Origin: Candidatus Aenigmatarchaeota archaeon
Lineage (GTDB): Archaea > Aenigmatarchaeota > Aenigmatarchaeia > GW2011-AR5
Assembly (NCBI GenBank): GCA_016184005.1
Contig: JACPDL010000003.1
Span: forward strand, 235,632-299,631
Direction: 5' to 3'
Length of the DNA stretch: 64,000 nucleotides
Both the position numbers and the translations under genes were made by a program. Below the pieces are notes generated by a model. That model was not told where the DNA came from. It made no database searches and was given only the letters and a program-made list of their open reading frames with translations. Below, one piece after another: positions 11,750-59,055 of this stretch (positions are counted from its first letter, which is position 1; every line of letters starts with the position of its first letter).

Positions 11750-14134
11750 ATGAAACTATACATCCTCCTGCCGATCATGTTCCTGGCCGCTGTTGTACAC
11801 GCAGCGCCAACCCTGTTTGGTTCGCTCCCAGCTAACGACGCGTTTACCAAAGGCGGCACTATAAATTTTTCTGTCAACGCAAGCAGCGCAGCCCTCAACT
11901 CAAGCAATGCAGTGCTTTTTGTAATATCGAAAAGCGCCTATGACCAGGGGGAAAGCTGGGACAGGTATGTTATGCAGTGCGGAAATTATACTGTTTCAGA
12001 CTGGAAATGCAACAGAACGGTATCTTTTGCCATTGCAGGCTCTGACACGCCCGAACTGTTTTATTTCGAGGCCAATGACACCAGCGGCTCAAACCTCGGC
12101 ACTGCAGCATCACCGCTGAGATTCACGCTGGACAGAAGCCCGCCCCTGATGTCTATCCTCGCGCCGCAGAACAACTCCTATGTTTCAGGGAATGTCACTG
12201 TCCAGATATCCGCTGGAGACACGGCCTCTGGCGTCAACGACAGCACACTGCAATTTTCACTGGACAACGCGACATGGAATAACTTCACAGGCGGCATAGG
12301 AGTTTGGAATAGCGTCGCTTATGCTGACAACACAAGCGTCAGGATATATGCGAGAGCAAAGGATAACGTGGCTAACAGCGTGGAAACAAGCATAAACGTC
12401 AGTACAGACAACGAGATGCCTAAAATCCTGATCATCTCGCCTGCAAACGGCTCGTCAATAGCCGGATCTTACACATTCCAGGCAACGGTAAATGACACAT
12501 ATTCAGGCATCAACACAGGCTCTGTTTCTGTGCGATTTGCCAACAGCAATTTTGGAATGACATGCGCGGGAACAAAAAACCTCAACTGCAGCGTGGCAAT
12601 AGACACATCTGTCTATGCTGATAATACTTACAACGCAACATTCAGCGTCCTGGATGCTGCCAGCAATCCGAACAACGCAACAATCTCTATGAGCACCAAA
12701 AACAGCAAGCCGACTGTGAACCTGCTGCTGCAGGAAGGCTTTCTCAAAGGAACCGTTGCAATCAATGTCTCGATAACAAAGCCGGAAGGCATCATAAGCA
12801 ATGTCACACTCGCGCTTGAAAACGGCAACATCGTGCCTGTCGGAAAGATGGATTGCAGCAGTGATTTCACATCCTGCACGTACACCATGGACACGACAAG
12901 ATTCCCTGACGGAGCAAAAACGCTGGCTGCAACAGCCGGCAACAGCCTTGGCTACTCGCTGAAAAGCTCAGTCAGGGTGAACATCGACAACACGAAGCCA
13001 ACAATCACAATAAACACGCCGCAGATTGTCAAAGGCGCATGGGATATTGCTGCGACAGTGACAGACGAAAATCCCCATGAAGAGAAGGTTGCATTCAAGA
13101 TCGGCTCCTACCTGCAAACAATGTTCTGCACTACCCAGGCGAAGTCGCTGGACTGCAAGTCAAAATACGATTCAAACCTGCTGTCAGACGGGCCACTAGT
13201 ACTCGAAATTACAGCTTCTGACAAGCCCGGAAACTCGTTCACGGCTTCAAAAAACGTTTCCATAGACAACAAGCCCCCTGAATTCAGGTTCATCAAGATC
13301 GACCCTATATACTCGAAAGGCCCCAAAGAAATAAAATTCACTGTAGGGCTGGAGGATGCAGGCAGCAGCGTAAAGGTTGCACGGGCAACGATAAAGCATC
13401 CAGAATTCACTGCAACCCTTGACATGATAAACGTTTCGGCTGTTTGGTACGGAAAGGCCACCATAGTGAGCTACGGCAGCCACAAAGTCAGCATCAAGGC
13501 CGAAGACCAAAGCGGCAATTCAGTGACATATGACGAGAAAGGATACTTCTACATCGGGCCTCTGTCATGCGGTGACGGCATATGCCAGGCAGCAGAGAAC
13601 AGCTGCCTGTGCGCAGATGACTGCTCGGGGCCGACATGCTCCGGCAATCAGGTAACAGAATGCGGTTCAGGCCTTCCTGTATGCGCCCCGCCGCCCATAT
13701 GCGGCAACGACCTCTGCAGCAGCAGCGAGAGCTGCATCAGCTGCTCAACAGACTGCGGCACATGCGAAGCCATAGCATCTGCCGAAAAAATGATCGACGA
13801 CAAGAAGAAATCCGGCAAGAACGAGACATTAGGCACAGGGTCCGGGACACAACCCGGTGCTGAAGCCGAAGCGCGGTCGCTATTTGCGCCTGTCATCGGC
13901 TCCATAAAGGAGAACCCCCTTGTTGCAATTACATTCGTGACTGTCATAGTCATGCTTATCCTGCTGTTCGCACTACGGAAGAAAAGACCGCAGTCCATGT
14001 CTGCCAGCCAGTCCGTATTTTCTCAAAAAGCGCAGCTTTTTGAAATTCTCAAAATGCAGAGCGTTTTGGAATCTCGAAAAAACTTTGTTTTTTCGAAGAT
14101 CTCGGAGAAGCTTCGCTTCTCCCAAGATCACTAA
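11750..14134 (+). CDS. Large surface protein with Ig-like repeats and C-terminal anchor
   Basis: A 794-residue protein with a signal peptide at residues 1-21, then several Ig-like beta-sandwich repeats (recurrent PPLMSIL, MPKILIISP, KPTITINTP and KPPEFRF starts, each about 90-100 residues) rich in Asn-X-Ser/Thr sites. A cysteine-rich segment with CGDGIC, CADDC, CGNDLC and CSTDC is followed by a membrane helix (VAITFVTVIVMLILLFAL) and a basic stop. The final 38 or so residues are encoded by family A hairpin repeat (14017-14131), so the natural C-terminus was probably shorter. An S-layer or adhesin-like role is inferred. Confidence 0.75.
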   Translation: MKLYILLPIMFLAAVVHAAPTLFGSLPANDAFTKGGTINFSVNASSAALNSSNAVLFVISKSAYDQGESWDRYVMQCGNYTVSDWKCNRTVSFAIAGSDTPELFYFEANDTSGSNLGTAASPLRFTLDRSPPLMSILAPQNNSYVSGNVTVQISAGDTASGVNDSTLQFSLDNATWNNFTGGIGVWNSVAYADNTSVRIYARAKDNVANSVETSINVSTDNEMPKILIISPANGSSIAGSYTFQATVNDTYSGINTGSVSVRFANSNFGMTCAGTKNLNCSVAIDTSVYADNTYNATFSVLDAASNPNNATISMSTKNSKPTVNLLLQEGFLKGTVAINVSITKPEGIISNVTLALENGNIVPVGKMDCSSDFTSCTYTMDTTRFPDGAKTLAATAGNSLGYSLKSSVRVNIDNTKPTITINTPQIVKGAWDIAATVTDENPHEEKVAFKIGSYLQTMFCTTQAKSLDCKSKYDSNLLSDGPLVLEITASDKPGNSFTASKNVSIDNKPPEFRFIKIDPIYSKGPKEIKFTVGLEDAGSSVKVARATIKHPEFTATLDMINVSAVWYGKATIVSYGSHKVSIKAEDQSGNSVTYDEKGYFYIGPLSCGDGICQAAENSCLCADDCSGPTCSGNQVTECGSGLPVCAPPPICGNDLCSSSESCISCSTDCGTCEAIASAEKMIDDKKKSGKNETLGTGSGTQPGAEAEARSLFAPVIGSIKENPLVAITFVTVIVMLILLFALRKKRPQSMSASQSVFSQKAQLFEILKMQSVLESRKNFVFSKISEKLRFSQDH
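14017..14131 (-). repeat. Hairpin array, family A, in frame at a gene 3' end
   Basis: Four adjacent hairpins: CAAAAAGC/GCTTTTTG (14024-14042), CAAAATGC/GCGTTTTG (14050-14068, one U-G wobble), CGAAAAAAC/GTTTTTTCG (14075-14095) and GGAGAAGC/GCTTCTCC (14104-14122), each with a 3-nt loop. The minus strand matches the consensus seen at 38363-38476 and 47758-47845. It encodes the last residues of the surface protein and supplies sequence up to its stop codon. Confidence 0.85.
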
Positions 14135-14146
14135 GAAGAGATAGCA

Positions 14147-14620
14147 ATGCTGAACAAAACACTTGCGTTCTTCACATGCCTTGTTTTAGTCACATTAACT
14201 ACTGGTTGCGTCCAGCAAGCCAACCAAGCTCAAGCAAAAAGAATACAAGATTCCAGATGTGAAGGAACTGCAGACTGCTTTTACGGCAATGTAAGCAGGA
14301 TACTTGACGGTGACACGATCGAGGTCGATGGGGACAGTGTAAGGCTTGTTCTTGTGGCCGCTCCGGAAACCTATGAGCAGGGCGGCGCCGAAGCAACGTC
14401 ATTCATAGCACAAAACTGTCCAGTTGGATCAAAGGTTCTTGTTGACCAGGATGACTGGCAGATGTATGATGACTATGGCAGGATGCTTGCAGTAGTATGG
14501 TGCAACGGCAAACGAATCAATGAAGAGAGCATAGAACAAGGATTTTCTGACATTTACCGCATATTCTGCTCTCAAAGCGAATTCGGCGATGATGAATGGG
14601 CTGTTAAGCTTGGTTGCTAA
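14147..14620 (+). CDS. Exported thermonuclease-like (SNase) lipoprotein
   Basis: A 157-residue protein with a lipobox-like signal (LTTGC, Cys near residue 21) followed by the staphylococcal-nuclease fold: DGDTIEV, VRLVLVAAPE and the later DDYGRMLAVVW segment. Family members cleave DNA and RNA with calcium at a conserved Asp/Arg/Glu site; Asp and Glu positions are visible here, and the first arginine of the motif is VRLV. It may degrade extracellular nucleic acids for uptake. It follows the surface protein by 12 nt. Confidence 0.78.
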   Translation: MLNKTLAFFTCLVLVTLTTGCVQQANQAQAKRIQDSRCEGTADCFYGNVSRILDGDTIEVDGDSVRLVLVAAPETYEQGGAEATSFIAQNCPVGSKVLVDQDDWQMYDDYGRMLAVVWCNGKRINEESIEQGFSDIYRIFCSQSEFGDDEWAVKLGC

Positions 14621-14656
14621 AAAATAAAATAAAAAAGAAAGAGAAAAATAAAAAAT

Positions 14657-15160
14657 TTAAGATGCTCCATACCCGTTCGGAGTTGCTAATGCACAAAACT
14701 GGTGCCCGCCGTTGTTGCTAGAGTCGCAATTATAGTTTGTATCGGAAACGCCTTGGTCCATAATAACTTCAAACTGACCCCAGATAGCGTAACCACCATC
14801 TCTCCAGTAAGGGCTGTTTTCTAGTTCAGAGCCAACCCAAATTATTTTGTAGTGCCAGGTCTCGCCTGAACCGCCGGGAACGTTGCCGTTCCACTCATTA
14901 TCTTCCCATGCTTCAGGTGTCCAGGGTGCTCCGTTGAATCGTGCATCGTTCCATGCTTTCGACCATTTCATGACGAGATGGTCATTTGCATAGGTTGGAT
15001 CGCCCCATACTGTTCCATCAAGAGTCCTGTCAACGCCGTCTGCTGCACCAACAAAAACTCTTGCTTGATAGTTATATCCAAACTGGTCGAATCCGCTTGC
15101 GAACACCGTTGTCGTTAGCATCGCTGCAATCGCTGCCAAGAAAACGATCTTGTTTTTCAT
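14657..15160 (-). CDS. Exported aromatic-rich protein of unknown function
   Basis: A 167-residue protein with a signal peptide (residues 1-22, VFAS cleavage region) and a Trp/Tyr/Asp/Asn-rich mature part (RTLDGTVWGDPTYANDHLVM, WSKAWNDARFNG). The aromatic-rich beta pattern suggests an extracellular carbohydrate- or protein-binding domain, but no motif identifies it. It is convergent with the nuclease gene. A lysine- and A-rich stretch near 14620-14655 separates the two stops. Confidence 0.65.
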   Translation of the reverse strand: MKNKIVFLAAIAAMLTTTVFASGFDQFGYNYQARVFVGAADGVDRTLDGTVWGDPTYANDHLVMKWSKAWNDARFNGAPWTPEAWEDNEWNGNVPGGSGETWHYKIIWVGSELENSPYWRDGGYAIWGQFEVIMDQGVSDTNYNCDSSNNGGHQFCALATPNGYGAS

Positions 15161-15250
15161 GCTAAATTTTTCCCTAAAATATATTTAAAGCACTGGACTC
15201 GGACTTTCTAACAAAGCCACCGAAGGGAATTGAACCCTTAACCTGCAGTT

Positions 15251-15326
15251 GTTTTGACCCAAATAATATGCTTTCATAGTTCTTTGGGGTTTATCCAGAC
15301 CTTTCTTCCTAAGAAAGGGATGGATT
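15251..15326 (-). other. Canonical anticodon-loop intron of tRNA-Thr
   Basis: A 76-nt intron. Cutting after the second base of each 3-nt bulge (TA/A and AC/A) joins nucleotides 37 and 38 exactly. The intronic stem ATCC/GGGT supports the junction. Inside is a hairpin CCTTTCTT/AAGAAAGG that resembles the ends of the larger D-loop insertion, so the two may share an origin. Confidence 0.82.
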
Positions 15327-15343
15327 TACAAAACTGCTGCTCT

Positions 15344-15494
15344 GCCAGACTTCTCTGGCCTTTCTTCACCAGTTCTCTTACCAGCTCTTCACCGGTTCTA
15401 TTACCAGTACTTTACCAGTACTTTACCAGTTCTATTACCAGTACTTTTACCAGTTCTATCTGTTCTTTCCGCTGGCGCTTTCTTTCAAGAAAGG
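15344..15494 (-). other. D-loop insertion (possible second intron) of tRNA-Thr
   Basis: A 151-nt insertion whose ends slide over a repeated TGGC, so the exact borders are uncertain by four bases. Its ends pair (CCTTTCTT with AAGAAAGG). A small hairpin CCAGA/TCTGG lies at the 3' border. I could not draw a standard bulge-helix-bulge here, so removal by the splicing endonuclease is plausible but not shown. Confidence 0.65.
15368..15460. repeat. 11-12 bp tandem repeat inside the tRNA insertion
   Basis: Eight consecutive imperfect units on the plus strand, each beginning ACCAG or ACCGG (for example ACCAGTTCTATT and ACCAGTACTTT), of 11 or 12 bp. The repeat occupies most of the D-loop insertion and may vary in copy number between strains. 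Confidence 0.85.
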
Positions 15495-15572
15495 GCCATT
15501 TGAGCTACAGTGGCGTTATCAGTGATATCTGAATATAAATATTTATATTGGTTTCAAGAAATAGAAGCTATA

Positions 15573-16196
15573 ATGGCTGTAAACATTGATGGCATTGAAT
15601 CATACTGGATTAGCATGTGGGAAACATTGAGCTTTTCCGGTTTTATCGTACCGCTCCTCTTTTATTCACTGCTGCTTGCGATTTATGCTGCTTTCTTGTG
15701 GCATTTCTACAAGTCTGTATCAAAAAGAGACCTTTTCAGGCTTAATCTCGACCGCAAGCATAGCTGGAAGAATTCCACCGTCTATGTTGTCAAGTACCTT
15801 TTCACTTTTCCCGCCCTGACGTTTTTCTGGTTCTTCGGGCTATCTGCAATACTTTTCCTGCTGTCTAAATCGCAGACAACAACAGACATACTAACCATCT
15901 CGATGGCTCTGGTGGCAGCTGCCAGGATTACAGCATACTATAAGGAAGGCGTTGCAGAAGAAATAGCAAAGATACTGCCTCTGGGCGTACTGGCTATATT
16001 TGTGGTTGATCCCATTTATTTTTCTATTGACCTCACTTTGAGGCACTTTTACAGCCTTCCTGCGCTCGCGCCTCTCCTAATCAATTATCTGTTTTTTGCA
16101 GTAATCCTAGAACTGGTTCTACGCATCTTATTCATGATGAAGGTTGCTGTAGTTGACGCGAAAAAGGGCAAGAGTAAAGCTAGAACTAACGAATAG
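15573..16196 (+). CDS. Putative multi-pass membrane protein
   Basis: A 207-residue protein with about six hydrophobic segments (around 20-45, 70-100, 105-130, 135-150, 160-180 and 180-200) and basic loops, ending in a Lys/Arg-rich tail. The ATG at 15573 is preferred because an AT-rich TATAAATATTTATA box lies just upstream at 15534-15547; the frame open from 15510 would overlap the tRNA 5' end. No family recognised. Confidence 0.6.
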   Translation: MAVNIDGIESYWISMWETLSFSGFIVPLLFYSLLLAIYAAFLWHFYKSVSKRDLFRLNLDRKHSWKNSTVYVVKYLFTFPALTFFWFFGLSAILFLLSKSQTTTDILTISMALVAAARITAYYKEGVAEEIAKILPLGVLAIFVVDPIYFSIDLTLRHFYSLPALAPLLINYLFFAVILELVLRILFMMKVAVVDAKKGKSKARTNE

Positions 16197-16198
16197 TT

Positions 16199-16213
16199 GG
16201 TATCCTGAGTATG
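16199..16213 (+). promoter_or_regulatory. Shared leader motif ending at the start codon
   Basis: GGTATCCTGAGTATG directly precedes and includes the ATG of the DUF192 gene. The same 15 nt are found in front of the genes at 24778 and 37864 (minus), where they form the right arm of family C hairpins. Here the rest of the element is missing. Confidence 0.55.
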
Positions 16214-16549: not shown

Positions 16550-16550
16550 C

Positions 16551-17684: not shown

Positions 17685-17758
17685 TTCTATCACGTTTTGA
17701 TAATATTTTTTATTAGGAGAGAAGGTTCATAAGGAAGAGAACCTAGGTTCTCGACTTA

Positions 17759-18985
17759 TTATTCAACTGTCTTTATTGTTTCCAGTATTTCCTGCTTAGC
17801 AGCCATGCGCGCAGGCAGATACCCGGCAATTATTGAAGACACTATCATGATTGCTACAGAGCTTACAGCTGTCTCTACTGGCAAAATGGGTTTCAGGGCT
17901 CCGATAGGCAGTACAATCGGGCTGATAGTGAAAACAAATACAAAGAGATAGACAACTGCAATGCCAATTAACGTGCCTATAATTCCAAAGAACAACGATT
18001 CAAAGAGAAATATCATCATTATCTCATTTTTCTGTGTTCCTATTGCTTTCAGGACACCGATGATTCTTTTCTTTCTTGATGTATTGATGAATACTACAAT
18101 GCCTATCGTGGATATGACTATGATTATACCTACCATGGTTGTAATAACAGTGACTATGCCAAACGTCTGGTTTATTCCTGCTGCAAATGTTGACGCTTCT
18201 TCCCATGTTTGTACCTGGGCGTTGGGTATTCCCAATTCAAGTATCAGATTTTTGTACCTGTCTGCTTCTTTCCTGTCGTTGAGTCGCACAAGAATTGATG
18301 AAGCTTTGTCATCAAGTCCTAGAACATCCTCGGCTTCCTCTTTTGTTATGTAGACACTCTGAGAGACGATGCTGAAGCCCTGGCTGCCAGCAATTGCTTT
18401 TATTTTGTACTCTCTTTCAACTCCGTTGGAGAATCTGATTTTTACTTTTTCACCTATATCGACGCCACCAAGACCTTCTCTTGTGGCGCCAAACCCTCTC
18501 TGCTGACCGATTAAATCTTCTATTTTCCTGCCAGCTATCAACTCGCCCATTATAATTTCATTATTGTCTTCATCATTGAGATAAGTGCCTTTCAATACCT
18601 TTTCATGTATTGTTGTGACATCCTGCTCTTCTGAGGGCGTGATGCCTTCGATTCTGATGCCTATTTCCTTGCCTTTGTAAAAGACCGTGCCTGAAAGAGC
18701 GATATGCGAAGAAGACTTGACGACTCCTGGTATCAAGTCTATTTTCTTTCTTGTGCTTGATTCAAAATTCAAGTATAATTGGTTTGAATCACTAGATGGC
18801 TGTATAATTATATGCGAAGTGGCTGTATCGACTATTTCGCTTTGAAACGTGTCGCTCAATCCATTAAGGAAAGCAGGGAAGAATGTGAGATTAATATAAG
18901 AGAATGCCAGCAGCGTGATGACTAAAGCTGCTATTTTCCTGTCTCGCGCAAGATCCTTTAGCGCAAGAAATGCTGCTAGCTTCAC
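17759..18985 (-). CDS. ABC transporter permease, FtsX/MacB type
   Basis: A 408-residue membrane protein: an N-terminal helix (residues about 17-40), a large extracytoplasmic domain (about 45-275), then three C-terminal helices (about 280-305, 325-355 and 375-395), the layout of MacB-type permeases. The C-terminal SIIAGYLPARMAAKQ segment matches the family. It pairs with the ATPase downstream and is separated by 9 bases from the upstream exported-protein gene. Substrate unknown. Confidence 0.85.
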   Translation of the reverse strand: MKLAAFLALKDLARDRKIAALVITLLAFSYINLTFFPAFLNGLSDTFQSEIVDTATSHIIIQPSSDSNQLYLNFESSTRKKIDLIPGVVKSSSHIALSGTVFYKGKEIGIRIEGITPSEEQDVTTIHEKVLKGTYLNDEDNNEIIMGELIAGRKIEDLIGQQRGFGATREGLGGVDIGEKVKIRFSNGVEREYKIKAIAGSQGFSIVSQSVYITKEEAEDVLGLDDKASSILVRLNDRKEADRYKNLILELGIPNAQVQTWEEASTFAAGINQTFGIVTVITTMVGIIIVISTIGIVVFINTSRKKRIIGVLKAIGTQKNEIMMIFLFESLFFGIIGTLIGIAVVYLFVFVFTISPIVLPIGALKPILPVETAVSSVAIMIVSSIIAGYLPARMAAKQEILETIKTVE

Positions 18986-24645: not shown

Positions 24646-24780
24646 CATCAACAACCATCGTTTGAAAACGGTGGTATGTGGTATTACTAAACGATGGTTG
24701 TGATACCAGGAAACCACATTTATATTTGTGGATTTACTGGTTTTCTCCACCATCTAAAGATAGGTGGTATCCTGAGTATG
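24646..24780 (+). repeat. Family C leader element, copy 1
   Basis: Conserved with 37862-37972: CATCAACAACCATCGTTT (24646-24663), then AAACGATGGTTGTGATACC and AGGAAACCAC (24689-24717), then GGTGGTATCCTGAGTATG ending on the start codon of the next gene. AACCATCGTTT pairs with AAACGATGGTT (24689-24699), but the inserted loop also offers AAACGGTGGT (24666-24675). CAGGAAACCAC can pair with GTGGTATCCTG with one mismatch. The middle differs between copies. Confidence 0.75.
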
Positions 24781-25164
24781 AAACTTAAAACGATGGGGAG
24801 AATCAGCGGCGCTGTCACAACGGCTGCTGCTGGATATGCTGGGTATCATATGTACAGGATAGTAAGCGGCACAGAATATAGAAAGGCTTATGACTTTTTA
24901 TTAAGCGACCAGCCACTAGAGAATAAGGCGATGGCAGGTCTATACTTGGCTGCATCGTCGACTTTAGTATTATGCTTGCCTCCACTGGCTCTTTTAGCCG
25001 CTGATGGTGTAACAGACATGGCAAAGGGTACACACCATTACCTTGGAATGCGTTTATGGCAGCGGTTGACTAAAAGCGAAGAACGAAAGAGGGAAATTGA
25101 TGACGCAATAAAAGACATGTCAGAAAGCATCGAAAAACCCATCCGTCTAAGAAGAAAACGATAA
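24778..25164 (+). CDS. Putative small membrane protein
   Basis: A 128-residue protein with two hydrophobic segments (about residues 10-28 and 55-82) and a highly charged C-terminal tail, much like the small membrane proteins at 1422-2296. The ATG is the final three bases of the family C leader, so the element forms its 5' untranslated region. Function unknown. Confidence 0.55.
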   Translation: MKLKTMGRISGAVTTAAAGYAGYHMYRIVSGTEYRKAYDFLLSDQPLENKAMAGLYLAASSTLVLCLPPLALLAADGVTDMAKGTHHYLGMRLWQRLTKSEERKREIDDAIKDMSESIEKPIRLRRKR

Positions 25165-25497: not shown

Positions 25498-25541
25498 TGA
25501 CCAGATAAAAACAGCAAGTCTTAAAAACACGAAGAAATTGC

Positions 25542-25708
25542 TATCTTGGAAGAAGTGAAACTTCTTCGAGATCTTCGGAGAAACTCCGTTTCTCCGAGAT
25601 ATATGGCAGAAACTTCGTTTCTGCCTATACAGGCGGAGCAAAGCTCCGCCATGTTCCGAAATCCTTTGGATTTCGAGAATCTCAGAAAGCAGTGCTTTCT
25701 GCAGAAAT
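25542..25708 (+). repeat. Hairpin array, family A, expanded six-hairpin copy
   Basis: Six hairpins with 3-nt loops: GAAGAAGT/ACTTCTTC (25549-25567), GGAGAAAC/GTTTCTCC (25577-25595), GGCAGAAAC/GTTTCTGCC (25605-25625), GGCGGAGC/GCTCCGCC (25632-25650), CGAAATCC/GGATTTCG (25657-25675) and CAGAAAGC/GCTTTCTG (25683-25701). The first two and last two match the four-hairpin consensus; the middle two are extra. This copy is intergenic, upstream of the minus-strand gene at 25497. Confidence 0.85.
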
Positions 25709-25745
25709 AGATGTTTCTTTTTTTCTGATCATTTTCTGTTACTAG

Positions 25746-26111
25746 TTATTTAACAAATTCAACATTTTCCATTCCCTTGAAGGCGTCGTCACCTGTAAGA
25801 AATCTCATGTTATTTTCCATTGCAAAAACATAACCTATGCAATCGGCGTAGGAAAAACCTTTTTTTTTGTGTTTGAGACGAAAAAGCATCGCCTTGAAGA
25901 GGATTTCATCAGAAACAGCCTCTTCAGAATCCTTGAACTTCTCGAATGTTAATTTAGCTTTTTCTTCTCCAAATTCTGCCAGACTCACAAAAATAAGTTC
26001 AGCTAAGTTAAATTTGGTCGTTACAATTACTTCATCAATTAAATGAGTGAAATTTGGACTATTTCTAGAAATTTCTATCAGCGCGTATGTATCAAAGAAA
26101 TAATTTACCAT
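25746..26111 (-). CDS. PIN-domain ribonuclease toxin (VapC-like)
   Basis: A 121-residue PIN domain with an N-terminal FFDTYALIE (Asp7), a central Glu in the NLAELIF helix, YADCIGYVFA and TGDDAF aspartates. VapC toxins cleave tRNA or rRNA. It overlaps the antitoxin gene by seven bases in the usual order. Confidence 0.85.
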   Translation of the reverse strand: MVNYFFDTYALIEISRNSPNFTHLIDEVIVTTKFNLAELIFVSLAEFGEEKAKLTFEKFKDSEEAVSDEILFKAMLFRLKHKKKGFSYADCIGYVFAMENNMRFLTGDDAFKGMENVEFVK

Positions 26112-26317
26112 CCTTTACGTGCCTCGTCTTTGAGTTTTTGTGTAGGTGTTTTCCAGTCTGGAAGCAAACCCCAAACGTCTTTGACTTTTACGTGCTTCTT
26201 GATTTCCACACGAAGTTCTTGGTTTGGTTTGATATTTTCTTTCGCTACAAATTCCTTCGGCAGAATAATGCCTATCGACCCACCTATCTTTCTTGTTTTG
26301 CATTCTACTTGAGTCAT
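26105..26317 (-). CDS. AbrB-type antitoxin (VapB-like)
   Basis: A 70-residue protein with a SpoVT/AbrB swapped-hairpin start (CKTRKIGGSIGIILPKEFVA) and a C-terminal tail that would block the PIN toxin. The ATG at 26317 follows a GGTGATAATT ribosome-binding site. It probably represses the pair; AT-rich sequence upstream to 26390 could hold the promoter and operators. Confidence 0.82.
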   Translation of the reverse strand: MTQVECKTRKIGGSIGIILPKEFVAKENIKPNQELRVEIKKHVKVKDVWGLLPDWKTPTQKLKDEARKGW

Positions 26318-26439
26318 AATTATCACCAATTAAACTTTATTTAACTTTGTTATATTATGTTTAATAAACTATAAAAAGGTTTATTTCGAAGCAAGAAAAG
26401 TTGAAGCAGGCTAAATCTAAAATTAGAATATATTTATAA

Positions 26440-32292: not shown

Positions 32293-32293
32293 G

Positions 32294-32416
32294 TTATCCT
32301 CAGAGACATTGAAAAATGCTGTCTTTAGACAGCAGATGAAACACAATGTCTCTGGGATCACATCTTCTCACAAACCACCGACTTTAGTCGGTGGTATATT
32401 AAGAAGATATGATTTC
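32294..32416 (-). repeat. Composite hairpin element, family B copy 2
   Basis: Read on the minus strand, the order matches 7498-7620. Tier set 1: outer arms 32413-32402 and 32368-32357 (one G-U wobble at the same position as in copy 1), inner ACCACCGACT/AGTCGGTGGT (32395-32374). Tier set 2: outer CAGAGACATTG/CAATGTCTCTG (32354-32344 and 32311-32301), inner TGCTGTCT/AGACAGCA. The first outer arm is the last four codons of thiI, and the stop codon lies in the linker. Confidence 0.8.
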
Positions 32417-35410: not shown

Positions 35411-35559
35411 CTGACATAAGTCTTCAGACATTACTTATGTCAGTTCCTTACCTGCAAAGGAGCAGAACTCCTTTGAGGCCTCAAAAGCTACGCTTTTGCA
35501 GGTAGCAAGGACAGAATCTTGTATGGATATTTCTGTCACTTGCTATAACAGCAAGATTC
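35411..35559. repeat. Multi-module branched palindrome
   Basis: CTGACATAAGT (35411-35421) pairs with ACTTATGTCAG (35433-35443). Next, a TGCAGGTA outer stem encloses AAAGGAG/CTCCTTT (35456-35474) and CAAAAGC/GCTTTTG (35482-35498), giving a three-way junction. Last, GAATCTTG (35514-35521) pairs with CAAGATTC (35552-35559). It fills the gap behind the gene at 34755. No coding sense is seen in it. Confidence 0.75.
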
Positions 35560-37864: not shown

Positions 37865-37972
37865 ACTCAGGATACCACCTTCAAATGTATGAAACCATTA
37901 AACCATCAGTATTACCGGTGGTTTCCTGGTATCACAACCATCGTTTGAAAACGATGGTTGTTGATGTGCATC
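37862..37972 (-). repeat. Family C leader element, copy 2
   Basis: Minus strand. It contains the same segments as 24646-24780: CATCAACAACCATCGTTT, AAACGATGGTTGTGATACC with AGGAAACCAC, then GGTGGTATCCTGAGTATG ending at the rhomboid start codon. Here AACCATCGTTT/AAACGATGGTT has only a two-base loop. The central stretch differs from copy 1. It also encodes the last residues of the upstream gene at 37898. Confidence 0.75.
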
Positions 37973-38566
37973 ACGCATTCTGAAAATTACAGGATGACGG
38001 CCTTGGTGATATTCCTGAAGCCCAAGAAGCACTTCAGCACCAGCAGGCTCCGGGGAAAACATCGCATTTGCGATATGAACTGAATTGTCAGACTCCCTTA
38101 AGAACGGTTTTCCACTCTCGAAATCCAAACTATCTGGCAGATCATCAACAAATCTATGAAATGCATCAACATATTGATTGCACAAATTCATTTCAGGAGG
38201 AAAATTGCACTGCATATACCTGATGCTAAGTTTTGCATCAAAAATTGCAATTTTTGCTTGAGTTACAGCGACTCTATATACAGGATCTTTTTGAATCTTT
38301 TCATCATCAATTAAAAACTGCAGATACATATCGGCTTGAGATAAAGGGTCTCTCAAACAGTTATCTTGGGAGAAGCGAAGCTTCTCCGAGATCTTCGGGG
38401 AAACAGAGTTTCTCCGAGATTCCGAAATCCTTTGGATTTCGAGAATTCCAAAAAGCTGCGCTTTTTGAGAAAATTGGTGTCCATGGGCTGCTTTATTGCT
38501 TTGCCGGGAAAATTCATCATAGTATCTTTTGACATTAGTGTGGTCGAATCTGACAGGCACCCTCAT
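37898..38566 (-). CDS. Hypothetical helical protein carrying an in-frame repeat insert
   Basis: A 222-residue protein. Residues about 31-68 are encoded by the family A array at 38363-38476. The segments before and after look like one helical protein (RFDHTNVKRYYDEFS, then DMYLQFLIDDEKIQKD and onwards). The last 20 or so residues (QQPSFSNDGC and so on) come from the family C element. An ATTTAAAATTTC box on the minus strand near 38590 gives a leaderless start at 38566. Function unknown. Confidence 0.6.
   Translation of the reverse strand: MRVPVRFDHTNVKRYYDEFSRQSNKAAHGHQFSQKAQLFGILEIQRISESRRNSVSPKISEKLRFSQDNCLRDPLSQADMYLQFLIDDEKIQKDPVYRVAVTQAKIAIFDAKLSIRYMQCNFPPEMNLCNQYVDAFHRFVDDLPDSLDFESGKPFLRESDNSVHIANAMFSPEPAGAEVLLGLQEYHQGRHPVIFRMRDAHQQPSFSNDGCDTRKPPVILMV
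38363..38476 (+). repeat. Hairpin array, family A, inserted in frame inside a gene
   Basis: Four hairpins with 3-nt loops: GGAGAAGC/GCTTCTCC (38369-38387), GGGGAAAC/GTTTCTCC (38397-38415, one G-U), CGAAATCC/GGATTTCG (38423-38441) and CAAAAAGC/GCTTTTTG (38449-38467). The spacers start with GAGA. Its minus strand is read in the same frame as the copy at 14017, giving similar peptides (FSQKAQLF at the start and KISEKLRFSQD at the end). Confidence 0.85.
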
Positions 38567-38804: not shown

Positions 38805-38940
38805 CTGCTGTTTCTTCTATTTCGACTCCTATCTGCTTGATTTTGTTTTATCAATATTCGTTATCCTCAACAGAATGCGATTTTGCAGGCGTCTGCGCTG
38901 CAGAGCCTGCAGGATCAATAAGAATGAAATCCCTTATGCA

Positions 38941-39082
38941 ACCATCACATGAATGTGGTGGTTTCTTTGAGGATTTCTTTCGCTATCGTGTTCGTCTACT
39001 GGTTGACTTGAAGTTGAGCTTCGCTCGACTTAAGTTGCCAGATGAATCGAAGATTCATCTGAGCGGTAGTTTTTACGATAGC
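38941..39082. repeat. Nested palindrome with 3-nt-loop hairpins
   Basis: ACCATCACAT/ATGTGGTGGT (38941-38962) is followed by a large unit. GCTATCGT (38982-38989) pairs with ACGATAGC (39075-39082), CTACTG (38996-39001) with CGGTAG (39064-39069), and inside lie AAGTTGAGC/GCTCGACTT (39011-39031) and CAGATGAATC/GATTCATCTG (39039-39061) with loops TTC and GAA. A spurious reading frame crosses it. Confidence 0.75.
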
Positions 39083-44017: not shown

Positions 44018-44140
44018 GGAATACCACTGTTTTCAAACGGTGGTTGTAATCGTGGTATTCCTGTATAAACAAATCCACTAATCGTATACGTGGTATTTCA
44101 AAGAAATACCACCACATAAATGTGGTGGATTCTGTTTATA
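44018..44140. repeat. Branched palindromes with alternative pairing
   Basis: GGAATACCAC (44018-44027) pairs with GTGGTATTCC (44052-44061), while ACCACTGTTT within it can instead pair with AAACGGTGGT (44035-44044). Then TATAAACAAATCCAC (44064-44078) pairs with GTGGATT and TGTTTATA (44125-44140) around GTGGTATTTC/GAAATACCAC and CCACAT/ATGTGG hairpins. It is related to 51502-51600, sharing the 20-nt inner palindrome CCACCACATAAATGTGGTGG. Confidence 0.75.
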
Positions 44141-47757: not shown

Positions 47758-47845
47758 AAATTGGGAGAAGCGAAGCTTCTCGAGATCTTCGAAAAAACTT
47801 TGTTTTTTCGTGATTCCAAAAAGCTACGCTTTTTGAGAAAATTGG
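47758..47845 (+). repeat. Hairpin array, family A, three-hairpin copy
   Basis: GAGAAGC/GCTTCTC (47765-47781), CGAAAAAAC/GTTTTTTCG (47790-47810) and CAAAAAGC/GCTTTTTG (47817-47835), with loops GAA, TTT and TAC. It lacks the CGAAATCC hairpin of the consensus. It lies between two zinc-ribbon genes and supplies the leader of the third, whose GGGGTGAT site follows directly. Confidence 0.85.
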
Positions 47846-47965: not shown

Positions 47966-48109
47966 AGCTGTAGAAACGGTTTATAGTCATGCAAAGAAAG
48001 AATCGATATATACTTTCTTTGCTGGCTATATGTGAAGCAAATAAATTATATCCTGTTTATTTATTTGCTTCACTATAAATACAAGCCTGCATACATACTT
48101 TTTGGTTCT

Positions 48110-52099: not shown

Positions 52100-52105
52100 A
52101 GTTGT

Positions 52106-54392: not shown

Positions 54393-54491
54393 TTATGATA
54401 GATTTTAACAAAATGGTGATCAAGATTTATCAATCTTGCTACATTTTGTTAAAACTCATTGGTGATATTTATGATTGATTTTAACAAAATG
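54393..54491 (+). repeat. Direct plus inverted duplication of a gene start around a hairpin
   Basis: TTATGATAGATTTTAACAAAATG (54393-54415, 23 nt) is repeated with one change at 54469-54491, which is the start of the nuclease gene. In between, TTTTAACAAAATG (54403-54415) pairs with its inverted copy CATTTTGTTAAAA (54442-54454) around CAAGATT/AATCTTG (54421-54438). The 76-nt spacing is not a multiple of three, so the first copy cannot extend the gene. Confidence 0.85.
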
Positions 54492-55148
54492 ATTGACAAT
54501 CACCTGAAGAAGGAACACAGGCCGAAAGGCTCGGGAAAGTATTATCCCAGTGAGATAGGGAACTGCCTGCGCAAGGTCTGGTATACCTACAAATACCCGC
54601 TTGAGCTCAAGCCTGAGCTGATAAAAATTTTTGAGCTCGGCAACATAATGCATGATTTTGTCGTTCAGGTGCTGAAGAGCGAGAAAAATAAAGACGTGGA
54701 ATTGCTCAAAAGCGAATTCCCTGTGAAAGCGGAGATAGATGATTTCCTCATTTCAGGCCGGGTTGACAACCTGATCCTGATAAAGGCTAGCGGAAGGAAC
54801 GTGCTGGTTGAAGTCAAGTCAACGATGGATATAAGCCGCATATGGGAGGCGCAGCCGCATAACATTGTGCAGCTGCAGCTATACATGCACATGATAGGCG
54901 TGCACAACGGCATACTGCTTTACATCGACAAGAAGAACCTGCAGAGCAAGATATTCGAAATCAAGTATGATGAACAAAAGGCAATGGAAATAATCGAGCG
55001 CTTCAGGCTTTTGCATAGATCAATAAAAGAGGATGCAATACCCGACCCCGAGGCGCGCGGCGACAAGAAAACACTGTGGATGTGCAGGTACTGCGAATAC
55101 CGCGAAAAATGCTACGCAGAAACTGCACAAGATGCGAAGTGGATGTGA
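54471..55148 (+). CDS. PD-(D/E)XK nuclease, Cas4/RecB-like
   Basis: A 225-residue protein. An N-terminal Cys (GNCLRKVW) and the three C-terminal Cys in MCRYCEYREKC suggest a [4Fe-4S] cluster as in Cas4 and AddB. The nuclease core shows GRVDNLI and VLVEVKST (D and E-x-K). No CRISPR array or cas genes lie nearby, so it is better called a stand-alone Cas4-like nuclease. The start follows a GGTGATATTT site. Confidence 0.78.
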   Translation: MIDFNKMIDNHLKKEHRPKGSGKYYPSEIGNCLRKVWYTYKYPLELKPELIKIFELGNIMHDFVVQVLKSEKNKDVELLKSEFPVKAEIDDFLISGRVDNLILIKASGRNVLVEVKSTMDISRIWEAQPHNIVQLQLYMHMIGVHNGILLYIDKKNLQSKIFEIKYDEQKAMEIIERFRLLHRSIKEDAIPDPEARGDKKTLWMCRYCEYREKCYAETAQDAKWM

Positions 55149-55171
55149 ATTGCACATTTATAGCTGGCCGG

Positions 55172-55879
55172 TCAGATTACCGCCCATATCATGTAAGCCC
55201 CAAGCCCGAGCAGGAACAGGCCAATCAACAATCGCATCAGCCCGCGCTGCTCTTTCCTCCATTTCTCGAGCTTCTTGGATGTATGGCCCGCATATACAAG
55301 GCCTATGATAATGAAAAGCGGCAGTATGAATATCAGGTTGTAGAGCAGCAGCAGCGGTATGCCTTCGGCAAACTGGCCTGTTGAAAGCATGCCAAGTATG
55401 GCAAGATAAGGCGCGCCTGTGCACGGCAGTTCGACAAAAACAACGAAAACGCCGAGTGCAGCTGCCACCAGCAGGCTCACTGTGGGATGGCTTGTTTCCA
55501 TTCTTTCCATGGCACGCGAATAGTGCCTTATCCTTTTCGCGCCGCCCGGAATAATCTGCAGCGAAAATCCGCGGCCGTACCAGAAGTAATCCTTTATTTC
55601 AAATATCCCTGCAGCGATGGCTATGAAGGCAGCAAGCCAATAAAAGGACTTTGCCAGACCTGCTGTATACGCAAGCGTGAATATGCCCATCCCCAGCAGG
55701 AAATAGGTGGTGTACACAGCAGTGATGTAAATCAATCCGGCTGCGAGCATTCTCGCCTTGTTCTTGAAAACCCTCGTCATGTAAGCGAGCAGGAATATCA
55801 GAACGCCGAAAACGCACGGGTTTATGCTGTCGGCCAGCGCCGCCGCGACTATTATCCCTAATGTAATCTGTTCGGTCAT
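55172..55879 (-). CDS. CcdA/DsbD-like thiol-disulfide transmembrane protein
   Basis: A 235-residue protein with about six membrane helices and two conserved Cys: INPCVFG in helix 1 and LPCTGAPY in helix 4. Such proteins carry electrons across the membrane to reduce extracellular thiols or cytochrome c. It is the last gene of a cassette with the PCYCGC protein and two membrane proteins, opposite HxlR. The start at 55879 overlaps the upstream stop (TGATG). Confidence 0.85.
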   Translation of the reverse strand: MTEQITLGIIVAAALADSINPCVFGVLIFLLAYMTRVFKNKARMLAAGLIYITAVYTTYFLLGMGIFTLAYTAGLAKSFYWLAAFIAIAAGIFEIKDYFWYGRGFSLQIIPGGAKRIRHYSRAMERMETSHPTVSLLVAAALGVFVVFVELPCTGAPYLAILGMLSTGQFAEGIPLLLLYNLIFILPLFIIIGLVYAGHTSKKLEKWRKEQRGLMRLLIGLFLLGLGAYMIWAVI

Positions 55880-56331
55880 CACACACAACCCGCAGGCATT
55901 GGAGTGTCCGTGCCAAGGTGCTTGTTAGGCTCATAGAATTTGTCTACATCTTTCCTTATGGTGCAGATATCTATCCCCTGTTCGTGCATCTGCTTCGTCT
56001 TCTTCGCTATGTCAAAGCATACAGAACAAGTCATTCCGTGCTTGTCGAACGAGCCGTCATCGCGCCAGAAACAGTGCCTTGTGTGCATATGCCCCTCATA
56101 TTTGCAGCCGCAATAGCACGGCATCTGTTCGAGCAGAGCTTTGCCTTCAGCTGTTGCGGCCCATTCGTACATCGCGCGCATCTCTCCTGTCACATACGAC
56201 GGGATTTCACCCGGCTTCAGCGCCTCCGACGAGATGAAAAAATACGCTATTCCGCCGACAAAAACAACGATTACAGCCAGAACGACTATCCTGCCTTTAG
56301 GCACGCCTTTCTGAATCTTCTTTTTTTTCAT
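55879..56331 (-). CDS. Membrane-anchored PCYCGC-motif protein
   Basis: A 150-residue protein with an N-terminal helix (VLAVIVVFVGGIAYFFIS) and a soluble domain carrying the PCYCGC motif (residues about 71-76) plus further Cys and His (RHCFWRDD, CSVCFD). It is a likely extracytoplasmic metal- or thiol-active partner of the CcdA-like protein. The start at 56331 is preferred over one at 56403, which would read through its neighbour. Confidence 0.72.
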   Translation of the reverse strand: MKKKKIQKGVPKGRIVVLAVIVVFVGGIAYFFISSEALKPGEIPSYVTGEMRAMYEWAATAEGKALLEQMPCYCGCKYEGHMHTRHCFWRDDGSFDKHGMTCSVCFDIAKKTKQMHEQGIDICTIRKDVDKFYEPNKHLGTDTPMPAGCV

Positions 56332-56336
56332 CAGGC

Positions 56337-56615
56337 TCACGCGAGAAACTCGATCACATAAAACAGGAATATCACGGCCATGCTGCCGACAGCGCTGTAC
56401 CATGCCAGCTTTTCATGCGATTTCTTTTCCTTGACCAGAAAGCCGGCTGCAACAAAAACCAGCGCCACAATGACAGCCTTTCCGATCCAGTGGTGGCCAA
56501 ACAGCGTTTGCAGAAGCGTTTTGAAAGGCGGCGCAAGCTCCGCCACTATAACCAGAATTGCAAGCAGCCATGCGCTCACTGCTGCGCCAAGATAAAAATT
56601 GAATTTCCTTTTCAT
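56337..56615 (-). CDS. Small membrane protein of redox cassette
   Basis: A 92-residue protein with three hydrophobic segments (LGAAVSAWLLAILVIVAEL, AVIVALVFVAAGFL, AVGSMAVIFLFYVIEFL). It starts four bases into the preceding gene (ATGA) and is translated with it. It may be a small subunit of a membrane redox complex, inferred from context only. Confidence 0.55.
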   Translation of the reverse strand: MKRKFNFYLGAAVSAWLLAILVIVAELAPPFKTLLQTLFGHHWIGKAVIVALVFVAAGFLVKEKKSHEKLAWYSAVGSMAVIFLFYVIEFLA

Positions 56616-57025
56616 GCGAATGCCCCCAGCTTGACGACCCGTCCCATCACGCCTATTAACACGGTAACCGCAATCAGCAGAAGCCACCATTTCCTGCTTT
56701 CCCGTATTCTGCCCGTGAGGACCATGCCGGCTGCAACCGTCGCTATCACCGGAAGCAGCAGTCCCCAGTGCTCCTTTGTTTCCATGAAGATAGAATGCGC
56801 CCAAGGCCACGCGCCGGCCTTTATGAGGGTCTTTGTTGCGGGATAGAAATTTATGTACAGGATGCCTGCCGGGACCAGCACGAACCAGCTTATTCCAGCA
56901 GTCAGGACGGAAAGCGGCCCCAGGATGGAAGATTTTCTCTTCTTCATTTCAAGCAGAATAATTATTGACAGCACCGCCAGCGCCGCGCCCAGAATGATGT
57001 GTGCAAATAAAACCGCATCCCTCAT
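56612..57025 (-). CDS. Membrane protein of redox cassette
   Basis: A 137-residue protein with four hydrophobic segments and scattered His residues (FAHIILGAALAV and AWPWAHSIFMETKEHW), which could bind heme as in small cytochrome-like membrane proteins; this is a guess. It is the first gene of the minus-strand cassette, divergent from HxlR at 57096. Confidence 0.55.
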   Translation of the reverse strand: MRDAVLFAHIILGAALAVLSIIILLEMKKRKSSILGPLSVLTAGISWFVLVPAGILYINFYPATKTLIKAGAWPWAHSIFMETKEHWGLLLPVIATVAAGMVLTGRIRESRKWWLLLIAVTVLIGVMGRVVKLGAFA

Positions 57026-57095
57026 GTCATTACCTGAATCTTTTTATCCGCACATGTACAAATACCATCCAGTATCAAATTTGGTAGCGATAAGC

Positions 57096-57440
57096 ATGGT
57101 GTGCCGGGTTGTTGAATCAAGCCATATCATAGGAAAGAAATGGTCTATTCCAGTAATAGAAGAAATAGCCTTCGGCAAATTTGACGGGTTCAATAAATTT
57201 CTGGCGAGGACAAAAGACATCACGCCCAGAACTTTGTCGCTGCAGCTGAAGGAGCTTGAACATTCGGGCGTGATAGCGAAGCAGAACGATCCCGACAGCC
57301 AAAACACGGCAACGTACGTACTCACAAAGAAGGGACTGGAACTGCACAGGATCATAATAGAAATAAAGAAATGGAATGTGGGATGGAACGCTGTTTCTGA
57401 AAAATGTTTAAAGAATACATGCACAGAATGCCGAAAATAA
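57096..57440 (+). CDS. HxlR-family transcriptional regulator
   Basis: A 114-residue winged-helix protein with the HxlR pattern (CRVVESSHIIGKKWSIPVIE, FLARTKDITPRTLSLQLKE, YVLTKKGLELHRIIIE). Extra Cys (CLKNTCTEC at the end) could sense redox state or metal. It is divergent from the redox cassette (57025-55172) and is the natural candidate to control it. The start at 57096 is chosen for the typical length; an ATG at 57054 is possible. Confidence 0.8.
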   Translation: MVCRVVESSHIIGKKWSIPVIEEIAFGKFDGFNKFLARTKDITPRTLSLQLKELEHSGVIAKQNDPDSQNTATYVLTKKGLELHRIIIEIKKWNVGWNAVSEKCLKNTCTECRK

Positions 57441-57560
57441 AGCCCAATCCATTCTGATTACACGGGCGCCAGAAAAGCAGGGCAGAAGAAAACGCTTCCT
57501 GACAAGGAACTGGATGAATGGGAAGAAAGATGTATGGAAATGTGAAGGTTCAAGAGAAGC

Positions 57561-57887
57561 TTAATTATACCCGAATTTTTTCTCATAAGCTTTGTGATCA
57601 AACCATTCTAATATGATAGCCATTATTTTCACTTCATCTTTTGCAATTGTATAGATTAATCTCCAAGCATTCGGAAGATCATATTTCCACAAGTTGTCTA
57701 TTTTGTATTTCCTGATGTATTCTTTTGGCCAGAATTTTTTAGGAATCTTTATCCCGCTCTCCGGGTTCTTTTTCAGGTCATCTGTAGCTCTTTCCAAGAA
57801 ATTGAAAAGTTTCGGATCTTCTTTTTTAGCTTTTTCGTATTCTTTCCTGGTTTTCTCATCAATGAATCCTACAAATACGTCTGTCAT
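57561..57887 (-). CDS. RelE/ParE-superfamily toxin
   Basis: A 108-residue protein with the RelE-like fold pattern (FVGFIDEKTRKEYEKAKKE, KIPKKFWPKEYI, WRLIYTIAKDEVKIMAIILEWFDHKAYEKKFGY). Such toxins cleave mRNA on the ribosome. It is co-transcribed with the gene at 57884, whose stop overlaps its start by four bases. Confidence 0.78.
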   Translation of the reverse strand: MTDVFVGFIDEKTRKEYEKAKKEDPKLFNFLERATDDLKKNPESGIKIPKKFWPKEYIRKYKIDNLWKYDLPNAWRLIYTIAKDEVKIMAIILEWFDHKAYEKKFGYN

Positions 57888-58147
57888 TTGAGAATCAGCC
57901 CTTTCTGCATGATTTTCTTAACAAGTTCAGGGTTCCAGATCCAGACTATTTGTCCGTCTTTGTCTATTATTATCTTGTTTAGACTGACAAGATAGTCTAT
58001 TATCATGCAGAAAGTCTGGTACATTACCTTCTTCGGCAGGGCCTTCCAAAGCTCTGTCTTTGTAGGGTAGTATTCCAGCTTCCTTATAGTCTCCTCTACC
58101 ATTATCACCGTGTCAAGCCTTGGATAATGCAGAATATTCGTTTTCAT
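57884..58147 (-). CDS. Antitoxin-like winged-helix protein
   Basis: An 87-residue protein with a helix-turn-helix-like middle (PTKTELWKALPKKVMYQTFCM) and a C-terminal WNPELVKKIMQKG tail. It has no close resemblance to RelB but occupies the antitoxin position ahead of the toxin. An AT-rich TTTATATAG near 58155-58165 probably holds its promoter. Confidence 0.65.
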   Translation of the reverse strand: MKTNILHYPRLDTVIMVEETIRKLEYYPTKTELWKALPKKVMYQTFCMIIDYLVSLNKIIIDKDGQIVWIWNPELVKKIMQKGLILK

Positions 58148-58554
58148 GACTTATATAAGTTTATATAGATATATAAAGGTCGCTATTGGATCGATCTTGG
58201 CCGTCTCTCTGACAAAGAAGCCACAGAGTCGGCGGCGAGCTATGTTACACACTTTTCACCACAGATACTCATTAAACAACACCGTGTAACAGTGAGTATC
58301 AATGAACAGGAAACTCATTTTCCAGATGTATACCTATAAGAATTTAATAAAAAAAACAGCAAGCAAGAAATCCCTAACAAAATAATTATAAATAAGCGGG
58401 CAACCGATTGGACTTAACAACTATTAAGCAAACCTTTGGGAATTCTGGGGTTTAGTGGCTTATACTGTTGGGTTTATGCGGGGTGTTATTGCTTCTATAA
58501 ACCCTTCACAACTTTTAAAAAACTTTAAATAATGTGCTGTATATGATAGCAGAT
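58148..58554. other. Long intergenic region with possible structured RNA
   Basis: About 400 nt without a gene. TATATAAAGG-like sequence near 58160-58170 could start a plus-strand transcript. Interlocked arms TGTTACAC (58243-58250) with GTGTAACA (58284-58291) and GATACTCA (58264-58271) with TGAGTATC (58293-58300) would form an H-type pseudoknot. Upstream CTCTG/CAGAG sits in a G/C-rich hairpin. Near 58473-58510, GGGTTTAT/ATAAACCC form an inverted repeat ahead of the PadR gene. An ncRNA is a hypothesis only. Confidence 0.5.
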
Positions 58555-59055
58555 ATGTCTGTTGCCAAACATACTGGGCATGTTCTTCCTGTGATAACGG
58601 ACGTCATTCCAGGCGAAACGCCGGAGATTACAAAACTCAGCGAAATCGAGCTGGGACTGCTGCAGACGCAGATTTTATGGCTACTGAGCAGGAAAAGCGC
58701 GCACGGCTACGAACTCATGAAGACACTTACGGTGCTGCGCGGGGCGAGGATGACGCAGGGCACTTTATACCCGACAATGCAGAGGCTGGAAGAACTTGGG
58801 CTTGCGGAGAGAGAGGCCCTGCACGACAGGAAAATCATCTACCATGTCACCGACAAGGGCAAGCAGGTCATGAACGAGACATGCCTCGCGTTTGTGAAGA
58901 CCTTCTACGGCATATTCCACGACTACGCATGCGAGCGCTGCGACCACTACAAAGCCTTTTCTTTTCAAAAAAGAAAACCATTGGGAAATCTTCAGAATCC
59001 AAAGAATTCTGAGATGCCAAAAAAGCAAAGCTTTTCTGAGCAAGAAAACGAATAG
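58555..59055 (+). CDS. PadR-family transcriptional regulator with repeat-encoded tail
   Basis: A 166-residue winged-helix protein with the PadR pattern (LLQTQILWLLSRKSAHGYELMK, TLYPTMQRLEELGLAE, YHVTDKGKQVM). A CERC motif near residue 127-130 could bind metal or an Fe-S cluster. Residues about 134-164 are encoded by the family A array at 58955-59045, so the native end was probably near residue 133. The ATG at 58555 fits a CTTTAAATAATG box as leaderless. It precedes the suf operon and may regulate it. Confidence 0.78.
   Translation: MSVAKHTGHVLPVITDVIPGETPEITKLSEIELGLLQTQILWLLSRKSAHGYELMKTLTVLRGARMTQGTLYPTMQRLEELGLAEREALHDRKIIYHVTDKGKQVMNETCLAFVKTFYGIFHDYACERCDHYKAFSFQKRKPLGNLQNPKNSEMPKKQSFSEQENE
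58955..59045 (-). repeat. Hairpin array, family A, in frame at PadR 3' end
   Basis: TTTTCTTTT/AAAAGAAAA (58957-58977, loop CAA), CAGAATCC/GAATTCTG (58993-59011, one wobble on the minus strand) and a final AAAAGC/GCTTTT (about 59021-59036, loop AAA). It is more diverged than the other copies, but hairpin order and GAGA-type spacing persist. It adds about 31 residues to the PadR protein. Confidence 0.65.

Follow-up and report, generated by a model that had tools for sequence, protein, structure and literature searches.

Short multi-hairpin elements inserted precisely, and in frame within genes, in Aenigmatarchaeota

We know of no account of how palindromic repeats that invade protein genes, such as the Rickettsia palindromic elements (RPEs), move. 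RPEs (WPE in Wolbachia) are described as repeats of 105–146 bp that fold into a long stem-loop and end in inverted repeats (12 bp in a table), their target duplication being question-marked (PMC2229807). They are found both intergenically and inside conserved protein genes, where they keep the frame and add a peptide (PMC10969869). In archaea, coding palindromes are known from Methanocaldococcus jannaschii (Suyama et al. 2005, as cited in PMC2996958 and PMC2229807), and Haloquadratum walsbyi carries palindrome-associated transposable elements (PATEs) with strain-specific empty sites and 52-bp forms that consist of the termini only (PMC3119063). Here we describe arrays of short hairpins in a 64,000-nt stretch of DNA (the window; GCA_016184005.1, contig JACPDL010000003.1, positions 235,632 to 299,631, forward strand) from a Candidatus Aenigmatarchaeota archaeon, a member of the DPANN lineage, whose 919-kb genome in five contigs is referred to as G000. 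A preliminary description of the window had grouped five such loci (copies 1 to 5, Table 1) into one family, likened them to rickettsial palindromic elements and stated that no archaeal equivalent was known; the last statement is contradicted by the Methanocaldococcus palindromes and by the PATEs. The arrays are copies of one dispersed mobile element, which behaves as the Rickettsia palindromic elements do but is built differently.

Alignment of 21 four-hairpin copies from G000 and from a second genome of the same genus (G001) gave a full element of 108 nt with the organization TCTTG–h1–h2–h3–h4–AGAA. In the consensus, h1 (GGAGAAGC-nnn-GCTTCTCC) is preceded by TCTTG and followed by the spacer GAGATCT, h2 (TCnGAGAAAC-nnn-GTTTCTCnGA) is followed by GATTC, h3 (CGAAATCC-nnn-GGATTTCG) by AGAATTC, and h4 (CAAAAAGC-nnn-GCTTTTTG) by the terminal AGAA. 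These are four separate hairpins of 8–10 bp with 3-nt loops, and the TCTTG and AGAA ends make no inverted repeat on the scale of 12 bp. A common short form of 54 nt consists of h1 and h4. A pattern for the left end, allowing up to two mismatches, had 32 matches in G000, two of which overlap at a single palindromic spot, and 37 in G001; the reversed-pattern control gave no match. A chance origin of the hairpins is ruled out by dinucleotide shuffling of the window, which contains 20 perfect hairpins with a 3-nt loop and a stem of 8 bp or longer, whereas 20 shuffles averaged 1.05 and never exceeded 2.

In regions fetched from both genomes, 66 two-ended elements were catalogued, 33 per genome, by requiring left and right ends that resemble h1 and h4, respectively, no more than 200 nt apart, which excludes one-hairpin relics and copies 2 and 5 of the window. 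The 108-nt form accounts for 24 of the catalogued elements and the 54-nt form for 22; the remaining 20 range from 55 to 136 nt and include three-hairpin forms of about 80 nt. Some of the 80-nt entries are longer elements that were under-measured (G001 C29:533 is really 107 nt, G001 C6:569 is really full length). A model of the array, built from the 21 aligned copies (copies 1 and 3 of the window among its rows), identified at least 61 distinct loci in G000 at E < 1e-3, corresponding to 0.7% of the genome. This is a lower bound, as 150 of 898 candidates were scored and the list was compiled by hand without most second-strand rows.

Like RPEs, the element is found in frame in conserved protein genes, has a similar length and adds a peptide to its host; unlike RPEs, it has up to four short tandem hairpins with 3-nt loops, no long terminal repeats and a 54-nt form, and it occurs in another clade. 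With the M. jannaschii palindromes it shares the presence of archaeal palindromic repeats inside protein genes, a likeness taken from the citing descriptions. Its similarity to PATEs extends to the archaeal host, the lack of terminal inverted repeats and target duplication, the near-terminal palindromes and a length too short for a transposase (PMC3119063). However, PATE palindromes resemble those of IS605-type transposons, and no such partner was found here among the Y1 elements read; moreover, the available passages on PATEs describe no in-frame coding insertions (PMC3119063). REP and REPIN sequences are likewise dispersed short hairpin DNA, but REPs are extragenic and carry a GTAG/CGTC tag (PMC3116915, PMC3733652), which by eye does not flank the consensus hairpins. 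The element also differs from a classical miniature inverted-repeat transposable element in having neither terminal inverted repeats nor a target-site duplication. Two of the insert peptides (36 and 37 residues) had no match at E <= 1 in NCBIfam, a library that should include RPE models. No description of such elements in Aenigmatarchaeota or DPANN was present among the literature matches listed (title and start of abstract, with subscription journals thinly covered), which is weak evidence of absence.

Mobility can be followed by comparing G000 with G001. The flanks of each element were joined by script and the resulting junction was sought in the fetched stretches of the other genome; the joined flanks aligned across the junction for 30 of the 66 elements, and 21 of these alignments were clean. 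The nine that were excluded are G000 C4:3259 and C5:5248 (both aligning to one other hairpin-rich block), G000 C4:128246 (low complexity), G000 C4:462605 and G001 C26:26700 (element at the site in both genomes), and G001 C1:13144, C29:533, C7:5705 and C6:9426 (low identity or gapped). The 21 orthologous site pairs, with the element in one genome and none in the other, are filled in G000 in 12 cases and in G001 in nine; they are a non-random sample, because some regions were picked for contiguous matches, and their ratio of empty to shared sites yields no rate. The inserted sequence is 108 nt long at 12 sites, 54 nt at eight and 80 nt at one. In 20 of the pairs the alignment is free of gaps for 6 nt around the junction, and the remaining pair has a single-base gap nearby. 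A target duplication was not found, as none of 50 element flank pairs (sites common to both genomes entering twice) shared three or more end bases, and a single base was shared by 18 of the 50 against 13.2 expected. The empty sites display a pre-insertion consensus A^TNTWG, with A at position -1 in 14 of the 21, T at +1 in 15, T at +3 in 16, A or T at +4 in 19 and G at +5 in 12 (each P <= 0.0012, values that are somewhat flattered because the positions were selected after viewing the filled flanks).

The direction of the change is clearest in AlkD, in which a 36-residue insert in G001 is missing from all 11 aligned orthologues, i.e. those of G000 and ten other genomes (the alignment is without five weaker matches, in G002, G003, G017, G024 and G041). 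This establishes the polarity as insertion at AlkD, and for the other polymorphic sites we infer insertion rather than exact loss. That the element has been mobile recently and inserts precisely is, in our view, hardly open to doubt.

Seven copies within genes have hosts with a clear excess of third-position substitutions between the two genomes. These hosts (counts at codon positions 1, 2 and 3 in parentheses) are a PKD-domain surface protein (10,10,32), AlkD (22,14,72), a transporter of the MFS family (21,6,62), a PCYCGC-domain protein (9,2,15), the window surface protein encoded at 11735-14134 (8,3,17, counted over the C-terminal portion that was aligned), the product of a gene at G001 C22:727 (4,2,16) and a large protein at G000 C4:32397 (11,8,20). 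Two more hosts show a weaker signal, namely the 37898-38566 protein of the window (20,18,25) and G000 C4:165533 (6,6,13). Hosts of such inserts thus include surface proteins, a transporter and AlkD; in a Pfam test of 30 candidate host open reading frames (ORFs), 10 had a match at E <= 0.01 and 20 had none. In all nine hosts the element is 54 or 108 nt long and open in the frame of the host, and elements within genes are read in several frames and in both orientations. Examples of the peptides are LGRSEASPRSSEKLRLSEIPKSFGFREFQKAALFEN in the PKD protein and FSQKAQLFGILEIQRISESRRNSVSPKISEKLRFSQD in the 37898-38566 protein. A single-sequence fold of AlkD with its insert (mean pLDDT 53) was not used.

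The inserts are probably translated and tolerated, and we consider it highly probable that they are read in frame in several real genes. The preliminary comparison with Rickettsia, i.e. insertion in frame within genes, is well supported by the empty and filled orthologous sites and by the AlkD orthologues. Alternatively, copies within genes might be taken out of the mRNA like introns or bypassed by the ribosome, in which case the frame would be irrelevant. A hairpin-rich stretch precisely inserted in genes, and the existence of three-hairpin forms of about 80 nt, would be in line with such removal; nevertheless, 20 of the 21 polymorphic copies are multiples of three, the inserts are open in the frame of the supported genes, and the sole polymorphic 80-nt copy is situated in an ORF that has no codon signal (6,7,8). 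We give this explanation very little credence.

Besides the loci in G000, matches of the array model at E <= 1e-4 were obtained, with strict filters, in 26 of 145 genomes. These are 24 of the 31 genomes listed as belonging to the same order or closer, and two of the same class; 99 unmatched genomes were listed without their kinship. An h1 pattern with 21 fixed bases matched 21 stretches in a collection of 84,980 species, which may omit records very near the genome of the window: 19 were in the same-genus genome, one in another member of the Aenigmatarchaeota and one in Aeromicrobium, the last lying in a stretch of 70% GC, possibly an acetyltransferase gene, and being taken for chance. The same pattern had no match in a viral collection. 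On these counts, horizontal spread by viruses was rejected.

Pairing is kept in 98.2% of the cells of the 21-copy alignment. Changes on both sides were seen in five pairs (shuffle mean 1.6, with one of 500 shuffles as high) and in 16 cells (shuffle mean 4.5, none of 500 as high). The earlier claim that stems change while pairing is kept stands, but within the genus the signal is small: the number of further pair types (11 against 10.7 in shuffles) shows no excess, and 19 of the 34 pairs are invariant. Other genomes give stronger support for conservation of pairing, as they contain hairpin arrays with similar spacers and different stems, for instance G020, from another family of the same order, with AAAGGAGC/GCTCCTTT in h1 and TCGAAGAAAG/CTTTCTTCGA in h2. 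Double changes occur at all 34 pairs in 59 model-fitted matches (48 distinct), an alignment that is fitted to the structure, hence leans towards it, and in which some arrays are represented by both strands and some loci appear twice.

Pairing maintained through change would also be expected if the arrays were functional RNA or regulatory units, such as terminators, mRNA stabilisers or binding sites, that happen to lie in or near genes, and two polymorphic copies (G000 C4:208600 and C5:2262) are located 7 nt before an ORF start of the empty genome. Against this, the window has no Rfam match at gathering thresholds, and the difference in presence or absence is recent at the 21 sites, some of which lie midway through the AlkD and MFS transporter genes. 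As an account of the arrays we find it improbable; a function acquired later is compatible with these data. A further explanation is that the arrays arose without transposition, through slippage during replication or a switch of template at the hairpins. The loop triplet of h1 indeed flips, being GAA in 36 and TTC in 16 of the 59 matches and differing once at the same orthologous site, and internal hairpins have been lost between orthologous sites (108 versus 80 nt; 55 versus 28 nt), a turnover for which template switching can account. It leaves unexplained, however, why the same sequence of 54 or 108 nt, with the same ends, recurs at numerous unrelated places and favours a particular target, and as the cause of dispersal we regard it as very improbable. 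The 55-versus-28-nt difference concerns G000 C4:479291-479318 and G001 C26:9166-9220, which have matching flanks and contain a one-hairpin relic of 28 nt and a two-hairpin form of 55 nt, respectively.

We propose that the arrays are copies of a short non-autonomous element that moves as DNA with the fixed ends TCTTG...AGAA and inserts precisely at the weak target A^TNTWG, with target bases neither lost nor duplicated. Its dispersal, its constant ends, the precise empty sites, the preference for a target, reading in the frame of host genes and the polarity at AlkD are demonstrated by the data above. Insertion in a gene then adds a peptide of 18 or 36 residues and does not knock out the gene, because the commonest forms are 54 and 108 nt long and open in most frames. 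As a whole, this is the explanation we consider likely. IS200/IS605-type (HUH) transposition yields fixed ends, subterminal hairpins and precise insertion without duplication, with the target beside one end; of these hallmarks, precise duplication-free insertion beside a conserved short target and subterminal hairpins are seen here. Viewed from the minus strand, the target is CWANA^ and the element terminates in CAAGA^; since the two cut sites are alike, one enzyme could recognise both. Our guess is that a HUH-type transposase supplied in trans would recognise the terminal hairpins as single strands, an assignment that is tentative and that we hold to be nearly as probable as its opposite.

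Several observations weigh against this proposal, in whole or in part. First, no autonomous relative with matching ends was present at 15 inspected places that lack a clear full element. Secondly, Y1_Tnp shows no association with the arrays across 40 genomes (found in 8 of 24 with arrays and in 3 of 16 lacking them, P = 0.47), and the Y1 transposase elements that were read have different ends, being CCACC hairpins with TTTAAA in G000 and also unlike the element at three loci in G001; the ends were compared by eye, and the genomes are incomplete, such that a partner could be missing. Y1_Tnp is therefore not supported as the obvious partner. REP and REPIN sequences, by comparison, are mobilised by Y1 (RAYT) proteins. 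Thirdly, lengths that are multiples of three are not enriched in genes (9 of 9, against 11 of 12 elsewhere, P = 1): the two commonest forms have a length that keeps the frame wherever they lie, in or out of genes. The number of open frames is likewise ordinary compared with dinucleotide shuffles (P 0.24 for 108 nt and 0.43 for 54 nt), so that an unusual openness is unsupported and coding adaptation is not shown; hairpin-preserving shuffles gave P 0.014 for 108 nt, which is weak, and 0.13 for 54 nt. Finally, 2-nt matches between flanks are somewhat commoner than expected (11 of 50 against 6.5), and the five bases to the right of the junction are more divergent than the distant flank (16/105 against 343/5119 substitutions, P = 0.0025), an excess that simple precise insertion does not predict. 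To the left of the junction the figure is 11/104 (P = 0.12). The raised divergence on the right, about twice that of the distant flank, consists of changes that run both ways relative to the target consensus.

This divergence bears on a different mechanism, namely site-specific recombination, in which a circle carrying TCTTG would cross with the 5-nt target TNTWG through a putative tyrosine or serine recombinase, so that the left end would read TCTTG and the right end would carry either the copy native to the target or a hybrid. A heteroduplex resolved either way predicts raised divergence in exactly those five right-hand bases; moreover, the start of the element resembles the target, with two of the 21 empty sites reading exactly TCTTG, and there is no target duplication. 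The changes in the five bases, however, run both towards and away from TCTTG. Overall we judge recombination to be unlikely, but because the right-side divergence fits a 5-nt crossover better, a site-specific recombinase stays a live option. Returning to transposition of a non-autonomous element, a more elaborate version supposes that the element is tuned to coding DNA: its paired hairpins sum to 54 nt (26 + 28), so that spreading forms with two or four hairpins keep the frame, and paired stems would preserve a DNA shape required by the transposase while the letters change and loops flip. We are doubtful about this version. The G000 assembly is interrupted by an IS200-like element that is present in several copies and has TTTAAA ends, at the start of C2 and the ends of C3 and C4 (Y1_Tnp) and at the starts of C1, C3 and C5.

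Positions of the window loci are listed in Table 1. With model scores of 131, 85.7, 144 and 70.9 bits, copies 1 to 4 belong to one family, as first described. Copy 5, at 30.5 bits on the minus and 19.2 bits on the plus strand, was not reported by the genome-wide scan of the scored candidates; by its sequence it appears to be only distantly related, and it should not be pooled with the others. At the G001 sites matching copies 1 and 3 the element is absent, and in each case the two genomes differ in length by exactly 108 nt net; the view that the arrays form the C-terminal tail of the surface protein (first noted as 11750) and an internal stretch of the 37898-38566 protein proved correct, each amounting to exactly 36 codons and both reading in the same frame (FSQKAQLF...KLRFSQD). 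The claim that the tail of the PadR-family protein also arose by insertion of an array did not hold, since copy 5 differs from its G001 relative by 136 versus 54 nt, with no clean insertion. Copy 4 is present at the same site in G001, and its h1 loop is GAA in one genome and TTC in the other. Copy 2 lies in a 0.9-kb block (25537-26437) that is present in G000 and absent from G001; the block also holds a small ORF upstream of the PIN-domain gene and may be a toxin-antitoxin cassette that was gained or lost.

Table 1. Hairpin arrays, host genes and related features of the window
Feature	Position (nt)	Strand	Description
Copy 1	14020..14127	-	Full 108-nt four-hairpin element, in frame, 4 nt ahead of the host stop codon
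Host of copy 1	11735..14134	+	799-aa surface-type protein, Pfam Big_7
Copy 2	25544..25705	+	Long six-hairpin form with two extra hairpins; ends placed by eye, outside the catalogue
PIN-domain gene (PF01850)	25746..26111	-	Shares its G000-only block with copy 2
Copy 3	38364..38471	+	Full 108-nt element; 36 codons within the minus-strand 37898-38566 protein
Host of copy 3	37898..38566	-	222-aa protein without Pfam match
Copy 4	47759..47839	+	81-nt three-hairpin form, outside every listed ORF of >=80 aa
Copy 5	58956..59038	+	Degenerate hairpin array, C-terminal tail of PadR-family protein
Empty site	56315..56316	.	54-nt two-hairpin element here in G001, none in G000; within PCYCGC-domain gene 55879-56403 (-)

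Other repeats were observed in the window as well. A weak additional model match (22.4 bits, E 0.00029) at 35446-35522 surrounds a single hairpin, CAAAAGC-TAC-GCTTTTG. The stretches 32293-32413, 17701-17760, 24689-24789, 38923-39006 and 47981-48078 belong to other dispersed repeat families, which also have copies in G001 and are probably further small mobile elements. Two stretches, 24652-24775 and 44023-44127, are absent from G001 and have ACCAC/GGTGG hairpins that by eye are like the ends of the local IS200-like element; they are possible PATE-like derivatives.

These observations show mobile DNA adding peptides to conserved enzymes and transporters of archaea with small genomes. If the element were indeed tuned to coding DNA, it would represent a DPANN lineage of protein-inserting elements that add loops of 18 or 36 residues to working archaeal proteins. 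In the two close genomes many sites can be compared exactly before and after insertion; together with the target consensus and the fixed ends, this makes the reaction open to testing, and this gene-invading DNA with its two or four hairpins offers a clean natural case for how protein-invading elements move.

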